Shown here: positions 57,513 to 62,296 of the stretch, piece after piece | Layout: each line of letters opens with the position of its first letter | Position numbering within the stretch: the stretch's first letter is position 1 | NCBI GenBank assembly: GCA_902802905.1 | Contig: CADCNT010000002.1 | Coordinates: 1 to 64,000, forward strand | DNA: 64,000 nt | Direction: 5' to 3' | From: an uncultured Erysipelotrichaceae bacterium | Lineage (GTDB): Bacteria; Bacillota_I; Bacilli_A; RFN20; CAG-826 | Translations under genes and position numbers: made by a program | The notes under the pieces: generated by a model | The model's database searches: none | The model's input: only the letters and a program-made list of their open reading frames with translations | What the model was told of the DNA's origin: nothing

Positions 57513-58925
57513 ATGCCTGAACTACCAGAAGTTGAAACAGTTAAAAACATTCTTCTACCAGTCGTAAAAGGTCGTAAGATCATTAAGATTGATGTTTTAA
57601 GATCGTCTATTATTGAAGGGGATATTAATGAATTTGTTTCTAACCTTCAAGGTGAAACTTTTAACGACATTACTAGAATTGGTAAATACATGATTTTTCA
57701 TCTCACCAATAATAAGGTGATGCTTTCCCATTTACGTATGGAAGGTAAGTACTATGAATTCATAGAAAACGAAGAAAACAGTAAATACGCTAGAGTGGTT
57801 TTCCATTTTGATAATGGGCATAAACTTTGCTATGACGATTCAAGAACTTTTGGGATTTTGAAACTATTAAGTGAAGAAAACTATATGCAAGATGAAATGA
57901 TTGCTAAACTCGGTCCAGAACCATTTGTGATTAACGATGTTTCATCTCTGATGAAGAAAACCAAAAAATTAAGAAAACCAATTAAATCTACTTTGTTAGA
58001 TCAAACTCTAATGACCGGATTAGGAAACATTTATGTTGATGAAGTCTTATTTGCTTGTAAGATTCATCCTTTAACTCCTGCTTGTCTCATTTCTAAAAAA
58101 GAATGGGAAGCGATTGTAGAAAACGCGAAAGCAATTTTAAATAACGCGATTCAAGCAGGTGGCTCCACTATTAAGAGTTATCATCCAGGTAAAGATATCG
58201 ATGGCAATTTCCAAACTAGACTAAAAGTCTACGGCAAAGCCGGAGAAATGTGCGCTGCCTGTAAAAGCAGAGAATATCGTTTTATTAAGGTAGGTGGAAG
58301 AGGCACCACTTTCTGTCCTAACTGCCAAAAGAAAAAAGGTGCTCCAATTACTGTAGCAATTACTGGCAAAATTGCGTCCGGAAAATCCACCGCTACTGAA
58401 ACATTTGCCTTAAAAGGATATGATACTTTATCTAGTGATAAGGTTGTATCCGAGCTTTATGAAAGAAAAGATGTCGCCCATAAAATTGAACAACTTTTAG
58501 GAATTGAATTTCATCAAGATAAAGTAGATAAAGCGATTTTAAGAAATCATCTTTTAACACATCCAAAGGATAAAAGAAAATTAGAAAGATTTGTGCATCC
58601 ACTTGTTGCCAAAGAAATTATTAATTTCTTAGATGACTCAAAATCTAAGATTCAAGTTGTGGAAGTTCCACTTCTATTTGAATCCAAATTAGATTCACTT
58701 TTTGATGTGATAATCGTCATTGATATCTCTGAAGAAAAACAAAGTGAACTCATTGCTGCTAGAGACAAAGATAAAGCACTTTATCTTAAAGAAATTAATA
58801 AGACTAATCAAATCGATAAAAATAAAAATAAGGCAAGTTACCTTATTTCTAATAATTCTAATAAAAATATATTTATTAAAGAGATTAACAAAGTAATTAC
58901 TGAGCTAGAAGGCTTGGCAGATTAA
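57513..58925 (+). CDS. Fused MutM (Fpg) glycosylase and CoaE dephospho-CoA kinase
   Basis: A 470-residue fusion. Residues 1-about 272 are a formamidopyrimidine-DNA glycosylase: MPELPEVETV with catalytic Pro2, MLSHLRMEGK, TRLKVYG, and a C-terminal zinc finger C..C/C..C. The chain then continues without a stop into CoaE: P-loop GKIASGKST (near residue 286), RKLERFVHP, VEVPLLFES and NKASYLISNN. The lid and tail are present, but the DAD-like motif reads SSDK. In Bacilli mutM and coaE are often neighbours, so the fusion joins adjacent genes. It starts two bases after polA. Confidence 0.93.
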   Translation: MPELPEVETVKNILLPVVKGRKIIKIDVLRSSIIEGDINEFVSNLQGETFNDITRIGKYMIFHLTNNKVMLSHLRMEGKYYEFIENEENSKYARVVFHFDNGHKLCYDDSRTFGILKLLSEENYMQDEMIAKLGPEPFVINDVSSLMKKTKKLRKPIKSTLLDQTLMTGLGNIYVDEVLFACKIHPLTPACLISKKEWEAIVENAKAILNNAIQAGGSTIKSYHPGKDIDGNFQTRLKVYGKAGEMCAACKSREYRFIKVGGRGTTFCPNCQKKKGAPITVAITGKIASGKSTATETFALKGYDTLSSDKVVSELYERKDVAHKIEQLLGIEFHQDKVDKAILRNHLLTHPKDKRKLERFVHPLVAKEIINFLDDSKSKIQVVEVPLLFESKLDSLFDVIIVIDISEEKQSELIAARDKDKALYLKEINKTNQIDKNKNKASYLISNNSNKNIFIKEINKVITELEGLAD

Positions 58926-59802
58926 TCTCTTCTTTGCACATAATTGTTAAGAGTTGTCTAATCTGCTCTACTTTTGGTTTACTCATGTTACTTGTTTGAT
59001 ACATGGTGCAAATATCGGCGATTGAGTAATTACTTGTAATCATGGTAAATAACTTATTCTTACCTCTATAAGAGAGGATTGGGAATAAGACGTTATCTCT
59101 GACAAAGTCAGATTTAAATTCATTACCAAAGTCATCAAGAACAAGCATCTCACTATTTTTGATTCTATCTAATAACTCAGAAAACTTAGGACTCTTTTGA
59201 AACGCTAAATCGGTGAGTTCTTTAAATCTTTCAGGAACATCGATAAAGGAAATAGAGTCATAAGCTTTATTTCTAGCTGCATCAACACATAAGACGGAAG
59301 CAAAGAAGGATTTACCGGTAGACATATCACCTTTAACATAAATCCATTCATTGCTCTTCTTATCAAGAGCGGTCTTTTTGTATTTGAGCAAGATTTCTTT
59401 TTTGTTTTTACTTTGTAAATTACTAACATCTGTGGTGATGTATGTATCAAAGAATTCTTCACCAAAATCAATTAAGACAAATCTCTTTTTGAAGTTGATT
59501 TGCTCTAAATATTTTTTACAAGGAAGAATGTTTCTATCCACTACACCTTCTTCATAGGTGATGTTAGTCACTAAATATTTAGGATCCTTGTTGCAGTATT
59601 TTAAGCCTTTACAATTTTTACAATTTTTAATGTCTTCGGAGAAATCATAGATTTTAGGAGCGTTATCTCTAATATCTTGGTCAGACAAACCTAAAGCATG
59701 ACAGTATTTAACTGCGACTGGGTTTTCAAAGATTGAGTCTTCAATTTGTTTGAGATACTTTTCACTGATAGTGATGTTTTGTTCTACTGTTAATCTTTCC
59801 AT
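58897..59802 (-). CDS. dnaI: Primosomal protein DnaI (helicase loader)
   Basis: A 301-residue AAA+ loader. An N-terminal Cys cluster (CKNCKGLKYC..C) precedes Walker A GDMSTGKSF (near residue 160), Walker B MLVLDDFG, and an arginine-rich C-terminus. It loads the replicative helicase onto DNA with DnaB/DnaD. The start follows the DnaB stop by two bases, and the end overlaps the convergent mutM-coaE gene by 29 bases. Confidence 0.92.
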   Translation of the reverse strand: MERLTVEQNITISEKYLKQIEDSIFENPVAVKYCHALGLSDQDIRDNAPKIYDFSEDIKNCKNCKGLKYCNKDPKYLVTNITYEEGVVDRNILPCKKYLEQINFKKRFVLIDFGEEFFDTYITTDVSNLQSKNKKEILLKYKKTALDKKSNEWIYVKGDMSTGKSFFASVLCVDAARNKAYDSISFIDVPERFKELTDLAFQKSPKFSELLDRIKNSEMLVLDDFGNEFKSDFVRDNVLFPILSYRGKNKLFTMITSNYSIADICTMYQTSNMSKPKVEQIRQLLTIMCKEEINLPSLLAQ

Positions 59803-59804
59803 AC

Positions 59805-61070
59805 TTATCTGTCCTTAAAAAAGTCTAAGAGTTCGTCATCTTCTTCGTTTGTTTCAGTTTCAGAGGAGGATGTAACTTCCACTTCCTCTTCCACTTTCGG
59901 TGATTTTCTTCTCGCTTTTTTATTCTCCTTTACATAATTTTCGCGTAAATATTCCATCGCATCGATTGCGGTTTCAATCTTTTCTCTACTAAGTGAAGCA
60001 GCGATTTTCTCAGCACTGTACTTAGATAAGACGTTGTTGTTCATCTGTAAGACGAAGTCAATCAATACGTTAATAACTGGGTTAGGTAAGTTATAGTCTT
60101 TTGAGAGCATATCGATGATGTTTAAATCTGCTTTAGCAGGTTTAGTCCCATTTTGTAAGGCAGATAAGACATCTTTTGGACTAGCAACTTCAAAGAATTT
60201 AATCTTTGCCGCTAAGCCATCATCTCCCATGACTTTATTTTTATTTCTAGCGTTAGATTTTCTACTCGCTTTAGAATAAGTAACTTCGTTTTTAAAGTCT
60301 TCATTAACTTGTTTGAGGTCCACTCTTTTGCCTTTTTCTTTTTCTGGGTCGTAGCAATTGATAACTACATGAGCGGCGACAGTCTCACTAATGCCATAGA
60401 GTGTCGCTAATCTTTCGATTTCCTTCATCTCTTTTTTAGAGAAGGCGGTTTCGGCAATTTGGCTTTCACTCTTTAAGGCAGCGAAGAATTCTTCATAGAC
60501 GAATTCAGTGGAGACTTTTCCTTTATTTCTTCCCGCTAGAGCAGAAGATTCGCCGCTCGCTTTCATAAAGGCTGCATCTTCAAAGTCTGGATGGAAAACA
60601 TCATTAAATGATGAGGATACATCTTCACCGACTGGTTCGGCTTCATGGACTTCATACACTCTTTTGATTCTTTGGGCTTCAAAGTCACCTAAAGCTTGAA
60701 TCAATAAACCATATAAAAGAGTGTCATTAAAGAATCCTTTTGGGGTTTTTGGAGCTAGGATTTCATAGTGATAAATACTAAATCCATTCACTTTTTCTAA
60801 TCTAGTTTTTACTAAGCCAACTGCTTCAAGTACTTTTCTTGCTTCAGTAAAGGTTCCTGGGCTCATTTTCATTCTCGCTAAGAATTGTTCGTGAGAGGAA
60901 TATGAAAGCACTTTTTGGTTTCTAGCTTCGCTCCAAAATGAGAAATAGATGGCTAAGGCTATATAGCCGATAATTGGCTGATACAAGTTGGTGATCGTGT
61001 CTCGATCATAGTCTGCTAAAAGAGTTGAGACTTTGACTTCGAACATGTCTTTTTCTGATAAAATTACCAT
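59805..61070 (-). CDS. dnaB: DnaB/DnaD-family replication initiation protein
   Basis: A 421-residue helicase-loading protein of the Firmicutes DnaB type. The N-terminal winged-helix domain (VSTLLADYDRDTITNLYQPI) is followed by a middle region with a DnaB-2/DnaD C-terminal-like repeat (VASPKDVLSAL; NPVINVLIDFVLQMNN), and an acidic tail. The start at 61070 has GGGGAG upstream. It lies beside a cluster of DnaA boxes, so DnaA may control it. Confidence 0.88.
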   Translation of the reverse strand: MVILSEKDMFEVKVSTLLADYDRDTITNLYQPIIGYIALAIYFSFWSEARNQKVLSYSSHEQFLARMKMSPGTFTEARKVLEAVGLVKTRLEKVNGFSIYHYEILAPKTPKGFFNDTLLYGLLIQALGDFEAQRIKRVYEVHEAEPVGEDVSSSFNDVFHPDFEDAAFMKASGESSALAGRNKGKVSTEFVYEEFFAALKSESQIAETAFSKKEMKEIERLATLYGISETVAAHVVINCYDPEKEKGKRVDLKQVNEDFKNEVTYSKASRKSNARNKNKVMGDDGLAAKIKFFEVASPKDVLSALQNGTKPAKADLNIIDMLSKDYNLPNPVINVLIDFVLQMNNNVLSKYSAEKIAASLSREKIETAIDAMEYLRENYVKENKKARRKSPKVEEEVEVTSSSETETNEEDDELLDFFKDR

Positions 61071-61146
61071 CCTATTTTCTCCCCTTTGTTGAATTATTAT
61101 GCGGGGTATAAAAGCAAGTTTCAATTATAAAAATAATATTATTTTT

Positions 61147-61252
61147 TGTGGAAAAAGTTATCCACATTGTTTCCACAAGGATTTATATTAATATAAATCA
61201 ATCCACAATAAAGGAAAAATATAGAGTTATCCACAATGCATTTTGTGGAAAA
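61147..61252. promoter_or_regulatory. DnaA-box cluster around a 20-bp palindrome
   Basis: Perfect TTATCCACA occurs at 61158-61166 and 61227-61235. One-mismatch boxes (TGTGGAAAA) are at 61147-61155 and 61244-61252, and weaker boxes are near 61169 and 61199. Between them lies the perfect palindrome GATTTATATTAATATAAATC (61180-61199). The region is A/T-rich. It may be a replication origin, a DnaA-controlled promoter for dnaB-dnaI, or both. Confidence 0.8.
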
Positions 61253-61333
61253 TCTTATGATTTTATTTTTACACTTGCAAAAAACGAATTATAATATCAA
61301 CGTGCTATATAATAGCAAAAGAGAGAAAAACTT

Positions 61334-62296
61334 ATGGTTAAAAAAATTGCAGTCTTAACAAGCGGGGGCGACGCTCCTGGAATGAATGCCTGTCTTAGAG
61401 CCGTTATTAGAGCAGCTTTATTTCAGGGATTAGAAACATTCGTGGTCTATGATGGTCTAAGAGGTTTAGTCGAAGGACAGATTGAACAAGTCACTAAAGA
61501 CTTCACCCAAGATATCATCAATAGAGGTGGCACAATCATTAGAAGTGCGAGATTACCTGAATTTAAAGATCCTAAAGTGGTTAAAAGAGCCGCAAGAAAT
61601 CTTCAAGATTTCGAAATCGATGCTTTAGTTGGTATTGGTGGCGATGGCACATTTAGAGGATTAAATGACTTATCCAAATTTGGTATTAAAGTCGTTGGTA
61701 TTCCAGGCACTATCGATAATGATGTTGGTAGTACCGAACAAACAATCGGTTTCTCCACCGCTTTAAACACTATCTGTGAATGTGTCGATAAACTTAAAGA
61801 CACATCTGGTTCACATCAAAGATGTTCCTTAATTGAAGTTATGGGACGTCATTGTGGTGACTTAGCATTATATGCTGCTTTAGCAGAAGGTGCTGAAGGT
61901 GTCATCTGTGTGGAACACCCACTCAAAGAAGAAGTCTTATTTAGAAAACTTCGTAAGATGAAAGCACAAAATAAGAACCACGCGATTATTATTGTCAGTG
62001 AAAACTTATTAGACATTAAAGAACTCGCTAAACAAATCGAGGAAGAAACCGGATTTGATACCAGAACTGAAGTCCTTGGTCGTTTACAAAGAGGTGGCTC
62101 ACCATCCGCTGAAGACAGAGTCTTAGCAGCAAGAATGGGCGCAAAGAGTATCGAAATCTTAATGTCTGATGATCCAACCAGTAAAGTTATTGGAGTTAAA
62201 GGCGGACAAATCATCGACTTACCAATTTCTGAAGCTGTGGAAATGAAACATGAGCATACACATGGATTAAGAGACTTAATCGATATGCTCCAATAA
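61334..62296 (+). CDS. pfkA: ATP-dependent 6-phosphofructokinase
   Basis: A 320-residue PfkA catalysing the committed glycolysis step. It has TSGGDAPGMNACLRAV, GIGGDGTFRG, the catalytic PGTIDNDVG and LGRLQRGGSPSAEDR. The ATG is 23 bases after a TATAAT (in CTATATAATAG). The DnaA-box cluster is upstream. The length is standard. Confidence 0.97.
   Translation: MVKKIAVLTSGGDAPGMNACLRAVIRAALFQGLETFVVYDGLRGLVEGQIEQVTKDFTQDIINRGGTIIRSARLPEFKDPKVVKRAARNLQDFEIDALVGIGGDGTFRGLNDLSKFGIKVVGIPGTIDNDVGSTEQTIGFSTALNTICECVDKLKDTSGSHQRCSLIEVMGRHCGDLALYAALAEGAEGVICVEHPLKEEVLFRKLRKMKAQNKNHAIIIVSENLLDIKELAKQIEEETGFDTRTEVLGRLQRGGSPSAEDRVLAARMGAKSIEILMSDDPTSKVIGVKGGQIIDLPISEAVEMKHEHTHGLRDLIDMLQ

Follow-up and report, generated by a model that had tools for sequence, protein, structure and literature searches.

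A dense group of DnaA boxes (61147–61252) lies between dnaB and pfkA in a 64,000-nucleotide stretch of DNA from an uncultured Erysipelotrichaceae bacterium (hereafter the window). Does this group mark a replication origin away from dnaA, or is it a switch through which DnaA controls the adjacent helicase loader genes? Both readings had been offered in an earlier note, and we compared the locus with its relatives to decide between them.

Organization of the dnaB–pfkA intergenic region

A scan against TTATCCACA confirmed the six boxes of the earlier note: two copies of TTATCCACA, two of TTTTCCACA and two weaker sites. In the dnaB orientation, to which the signs in the box names refer, the order is L+/L−, a spacer with an inverted repeat, R−, R+ and the promoter. 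The distal pair consists of an outer TTTTCCACA box (L+, 61244–61252, minus strand of the window) and an inner TTATCCACA box (L−, 61227–61235, plus strand), which converge across an 8-bp gap; the distance from start to start is 17 bp in nearly all core members. This pair usually combines one TTATCCACA with one variant box, and which member is TTATCCACA differs by genus. The promoter-proximal pair diverges, with a 2-bp gap between R− (TTATCCACA, 61158–61166, plus strand) and the outer R+ box (TTTTCCACA, 61147–61155, minus strand). R− is 33 bp from the dnaB −35 hexamer, and its core, TGTGGA, is invariant in our alignment A2 (see below). R+ is present in many loci and is retained as TTTTCCACA or a weaker form in part of the family. 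The two weak box-like sites, each with two mismatches, are GTTTCCACA (61169–61177, plus strand), 2 bp from R−, and CAATCCACA (61199–61207, plus strand), found in the same scan; neither was found in the relatives shown. A perfect 20-bp palindrome, GATTTATATTAATATAAATC (61180–61199), forms the central inverted repeat. The arrangement had been called almost symmetrical, a fair description given that the centre of the cluster is 10 bp from that of the palindrome. On the promoter side of the R pair, before the dnaB −35 hexamer, a second perfect palindrome, AAAAATAATATTATTTTT, occupies 61129–61146; it is not evident in the relatives shown.

The dnaB gene (59805–61070, minus strand) encodes a helicase-loading and membrane-attachment protein with a DnaB_2 domain, and its ATG at 61070 is a start position common to relatives. 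Downstream and in the same direction lies dnaI (58897–59802, minus strand), whose product, a helicase loader ATPase, had no Pfam match and was recognized by its match to the DnaI structures 4m4w and 2w58. The divergent neighbour, pfkA (61334–62296, plus strand), encodes a PFK domain. Consensus matching placed a dnaB promoter at a −35-like hexamer TTGAAA (61119–61124, minus strand), whose position is kept across genera, and a −10-like hexamer CATAAT (61096–61101, minus strand), with a 17-nt spacer; the dnaB transcript is predicted to begin near 61089. A promoter-like TTTACA-N16-TATAAT (61268–61295, plus strand) precedes pfkA. Because both promoters face away from the inverted repeat, neither predicted transcript should cover it. 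An RNA family was considered for 60900–61500 and rejected, every Rfam match being far under the gathering score. Elsewhere in the window, a single 470-aa reading frame (57513–58925, plus strand) joins a MutM-type glycosylase to CoaE, and so represents either a gene fusion or a stop codon lost in the metagenome-assembled genome (MAG).

A box group of this density is otherwise confined to dnaA loci

Within the 64-kb window, at least three boxes with no more than one mismatch occur in 110 bp at one place only, the element itself; TTATNCACA alone is not enriched there (four found, 2.9 expected). The motif TTWTCCACA has 73 sites in the 1.54-Mb genome, and reading through the list of sites gave three groups of at least three within 300 bp. 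One is the element upstream of dnaB (four in 106 bp), another lies upstream of the dnaA gene at C5:82401 (five boxes, C5:82035–82288) and the last lies beside a second dnaA on the small contig C22 (three boxes). The dnaB element is the sole such group away from any dnaA gene in this genome, and in two related genomes (G082 and G099) the listed sites show a box density that is likewise unique outside dnaA loci. With several near-consensus boxes in a short intergenic stretch, the element resembles DnaA-box clusters outside oriC in its sequence. In G099, a TTATCCACA/TTTTCCACA pair 16 bp apart (C2:193341–193365) lies away from both dnaA and dnaB and may be a further DnaA site.

The second dnaA (C22:1238–2569) is full length, is accompanied by dnaN and is 54% identical to the dnaA on C5. 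It is no closer to the genus than to others. The seven other members of the genus that were searched have one full-length dnaA apiece, so that the C22 copy is probably contamination.

The boxes follow dnaB within one family

Relatives were collected with the dnaB protein from named MAG contigs (17 loci, labelled 'Erysipelotrichaceae', 'Bacillales' or 'Bacilli') and from genomes of the window's family, where matches were found in 89 of 96 genomes. These gave 92 places, and upstream DNA was read at 70 of them (30 loci and 40 stretches); the other 22 were split genes, one gene at a contig edge and low-scoring matches. Two of the genomes left out in this way were covered by further loci (L227 and L231), neither of which had more than one box in the right range.

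At least two boxes with no more than one mismatch were present within 260 bp upstream of dnaB at 52 of the 70 family loci (29 of the 30 from closer members, 23 of the 40 from more distant ones); all 30 closer loci and 30 of the 40 distant ones had at least one such box. Only 0.6% of 1693 background stretches from the same loci contained two boxes. In other families of the order, one locus in 19 had at least one box and none had two, and boxes were found at none of 15 class-level loci outside the order, where 450 bp was examined. Ten more distant members (of 40) lack boxes altogether, so dnaB can do without the element. On comparative grounds, the element appears to belong to the window's family and to have been lost from, or never present in, part of it. 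A variant layout was seen in genus g13 (L069, L080 and L081), where TTTTCCACA boxes occur singly on the plus strand, about 68 bp from one another, and the minus-strand pair is missing.

Among 73 loci with adjacent pfkA, 59 carry boxes and 14 do not. The gap to the PfkA motif is 262–371 bp in the 59 loci with boxes as against 150–253 bp in 12 of the 14 without. Boxes stay with dnaB in five loci where pfkA is not adjacent (L008, L043, L078, L079 and L091), and they are absent from four f3 family members (L151–L154) in which it is.

The R− box keeps a fixed distance to the dnaB promoter

Distances were counted in loci with two minus-strand boxes 52–90 bp apart, of which 45 were distinct and 44 had a promoter match. 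In this set of 44 loci, 31 have the R− box 33–34 bp from a −35 hexamer of the sigma-70 type. When the DNA between box and gene was shuffled (200 rounds, kinship between loci being ignored), a mean of one locus, and at most five, fell at this distance. Three further loci (L030, L036 and L042) have weaker hexamers at 33 bp by eye and are outside the count of 31. In 12 genera, one member or more has a distance of 33–35 bp; deviating, more distant genera have 22 or 44–49 bp, roughly one helical turn off, and the few scattered values are probably mis-picked hexamers. By contrast with this constant distance, that between the L and R boxes varies from 52 to 81 bp. Helical phasing of the latter was considered and dropped, as the values fill the range of 63–75 bp (with two core outliers at 59 and 81 bp). 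The dnaA promoters of the genus itself mostly have a box in the same orientation whose end is 21–22 bp from a −35 of the TTAAAA type, which again differs by about one turn from the 33 bp at dnaB.

Boxes at a conserved promoter position are one feature expected of a DnaA-regulated promoter, and it is mainly because of the kept distance from R− to the −35 that we read the element as one of promoter control. At the level of sequence there is good support for a DnaA-box element that is conserved at the helicase-loader promoter and specific to the family. The proposal of a DnaA switch for the helicase loader genes thus gains support from comparison: the boxes follow dnaB, persist where pfkA is not next door and keep a fixed promoter distance across 12 genera. 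The element would probably act on transcription, as a DnaA-responsive control element for the dnaB–dnaI operon.

The central inverted repeat covaries

The arms of the repeat vary in sequence and length between genera while their self-complementarity is kept. Alignment A2 was built from sequence alone and holds 30 sequences, near-duplicates and L017 (which has Ns and odd spacing) having been left out. For the nine pairs proposed, 88.5% of its cells are paired, compared with 79.0% after shuffling, and 21 cells show double-sided changes, compared with 7.9 ± 2.2 (none of 500 shuffles reached this number; kinship was ignored in both comparisons). The covariation score was 0.225, against 0.105 ± 0.018 in shuffled alignments and no more than 0.101 in slid versions. 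Five pairs have a double-sided change, which is unexceptional (55 of 500 shuffles).

A joint test of the inner segments used 33 spacers anchored on the conserved TTTA and TAAA; L017, L043 and L049 lack these anchors and were dropped. Between the anchors, 61 of 62 pairs are formed, as compared with 27.3 ± 3.8 in shuffles (0/5000, ignoring kinship), and the sole counted mismatch is one G–T pair beside the loop. There are 22 distinct inner segments of four to 12 bases, for example CATAG, TACTATGTA, TCTTTAGA and TCTATAAGTAGA. L017 and L043 have other perfect arms, and L049 (genus g16) has no convincing repeat; in distant family members the repeat is lost or unrecognizable. Shuffle tests on single loci were weak (22 of 45 below 0.05), so that the joint inner-segment test carries the argument. 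Relative to the L− box, the repeat is centred at about 38 bp, and in 30 of 32 spacers this distance has a spread of 1.2 bp.

Folded as a DNA hairpin, the window's repeat has a predicted energy of −3.8 kcal/mol. The outcome of DNA-fold tests varied among the five pieces used, for three of which the reference truncated the repeat, and RNAalifold found no structure on A2. A regulon of many such palindromes was considered and rejected, as the window's own genome has a single copy even at up to three mismatches. Exact half-sites were found in 14 of the 25 genomes searched (the window's own included), all 14 among the 16 genomes of genus g1; G105 has one extra copy, without boxes, by a lipoprotein-like gene. 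The variable inner length fits poorly with a rigid dimer site and would be better explained by a requirement for a hairpin or a simple dyad. One could go further and suppose that the repeat is selected for a DNA hairpin, extruded or single-stranded, that is opened or presented by the DnaA pairs. Such a DnaA-gated hairpin would govern the dnaB promoter and might be read by DnaB/DnaI or PriA, a form of autoregulation on a primosome-type hairpin. This idea draws support from an inner segment of four to 12 bases that stays self-complementary, for which a rigid dimeric site offers no explanation, but we hold it as a speculation with rather little chance of being right.

Alternatives to promoter control

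The origin reading, in which the element would be a main or dormant chromosomal origin away from dnaA, has some local appeal: DnaA boxes adjoin an AT-rich palindrome, the neighbouring gene encodes a helicase loader, and the GC skew climbs between about 52 and 66 kb. However, third-position skew flips with the coding strand in this genome, which indicates that the local rise near 61 kb reflects gene direction. GC skew had been named as a check on this proposal, and the cumulative curve turns at dnaA on C5, where the typical bipartite arrangement of DnaA boxes is also found; on C2 its minimum is at about 111 kb, not at 61 kb. The element thus has no switch from negative to positive skew of the kind that marks oriC. 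In the two relatives whose skew was sampled, G164 (a single contig) and G041, the change from negative to positive falls at dnaA, with some scatter upstream in G041. In relatives, dnaB is about half a chromosome away from dnaA. The two genes are separated by 507 kb in G041 and by 826 kb in G019, whose contig measures 1.48 Mb; in G164, with a contig of 1.06 Mb, the distance is 616 kb, or 446 kb in the opposite direction should the contig be circular. G041 is the only one of the three with boxes at dnaB, so that boxes there accompany a dnaB far from the skew switch. Between dnaA and dnaN of this genome, tandem boxes are followed by an AT-rich unwinding region; in the window, a weak second tandem box likewise adjoins AT-rich DNA and is not kept in relatives. 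We judge an origin at the element highly improbable, with a small chance left for a dormant or backup one, and that part of the earlier proposal found no support.

A DnaA titration site like the B. subtilis clusters would lower free DnaA without any specific effect on dnaB. B. subtilis has six clusters outside oriC, and such clusters affect the timing of initiation, according to PMC13220808; the box density of the element is also comparable to that of the dnaA region. Yet a pure titrator would need neither a fixed promoter distance, which is kept at 33–34 bp in 31 of 44 loci, nor a constant pair geometry, and would not have to stay with dnaB when the neighbour changes. We consider titration unlikely. 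The element might also be a datA- or DARS-like site, where a central element holds assemblies of DnaA that alter the protein's nucleotide state. Its two box groups, flanking a non-box centre at restricted spacing, recall datA, where boxes 2 and 3 surround an IHF site (PMC4585315), and dnaB is distant from dnaA in three relatives. Here, though, the centre is a varying inverted repeat with no fixed binding consensus, a three-box DARS core is not evident, the weak third box of the window is not conserved, and the promoter-phased R site would be left unexplained; moreover, B. subtilis is stated to be without datA and DARS (PMC13220808). A datA- or DARS-like function is very unlikely. The boxes might instead serve pfkA, linking glycolysis to replication, and the distal pair is indeed only 15 bp upstream of the pfkA −35-like hexamer. 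The five loci that keep boxes without adjacent pfkA, and the four f3 loci that have adjacent pfkA and no boxes, leave this idea with scarcely any likelihood.

A model for DnaA control of helicase loader supply

The sequence itself shows the boxes and how they are conserved, the constant distance to the promoter and the covariation of the repeat; from these we infer DnaA binding, an effect on transcription and its sign, and a role for the repeat. In the favoured reading, control of the dnaB–dnaI promoter, DnaA would bind the L and R box pairs, about 70 bp apart, and the R site, which keeps the same rotational setting relative to the dnaB promoter downstream of it, would alter RNA polymerase activity there. 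Activation seems somewhat likelier than repression, because the boxes leave the promoter itself clear and lie farther upstream than the −35. The AT-rich inverted repeat may serve as a dyad- or hairpin-forming hinge, or as the site of a further factor, between the DnaA complexes on either side. In this way, helicase loader would be supplied in step with the amount or state of DnaA.

If the model is true, the helicase-loader operon, which serves the step right after DnaA opens the origin, is under DnaA control in a large uncultured family of Bacilli, and a feed-forward or feedback link would join DnaA to helicase-loader supply. The conserved geometry makes a contact between DnaA and RNA polymerase testable, and the covarying inverted repeat offers a natural mutant set of the element.

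Comparison with known DnaA-box systems

The nearest comparison is with the same genus's dnaA promoter and oriC. Both places share a converging strong/weak pair, which at dnaA is TTATCCACA, a 9-bp gap and TGTGGAAAA (L002, 1297–1323), and both have a box at a set distance from a −35, 21–22 bp at dnaA. This L002 pair closely resembles the window's L pair (61227–61252), as if one module served both places. Unlike the dnaB element, the dnaA region has no matching inverted repeat; conversely, the element appears to lack the tandem box pair and following AT-rich DNA seen between dnaA and dnaN.

In B. subtilis, sda is a direct target of activation by DnaA, which also appears to act as a repressor of several operons (PMC4447404). 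As at the element, several boxes lie upstream of these promoters, where DnaA acts as a transcription factor. The targets differ, being sda, ywlC, vpr and others and not dnaB–dnaI, and the available part of that source mentions no covarying inverted repeat. In its Table 1, dnaB is not among the top 20 regions bound by DnaA in vitro, so a link between DnaA and dnaB would seem not to be general. The B. subtilis timing clusters resemble the element as box clusters outside oriC, and differ in that the element has a fixed geometry at one promoter, with two conserved pairs and a repeat (PMC13220808). The E. coli sites datA, DARS1 and DARS2 (PMC4585315) likewise lie outside oriC and have another element flanked by boxes whose spacing is constrained; relative to them, the relation to a promoter is new, and no IHF- or Fis-type site or three-box core was identified at the dnaB element. 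E. coli DnaA favours box pairs 2–3 bp apart (PMC11317965). In Caulobacter, boxes are predicted upstream of dnaB (PMC8203912, section 9), and a replication gene of that name belongs to the DnaA regulon, as proposed here; that dnaB, however, is the replicative helicase and not the Bacillus-type loading protein, and the lineage is unrelated. DnaA control of dnaB–dnaI in Bacillus-type bacteria was not reported in the literature searched, some of it available in part, and primary B. subtilis papers may mention it. The element is of a kind already known, a DnaA-box regulatory cluster, and its target operon, fixed geometry and covarying palindrome appear to be new within the literature searched.
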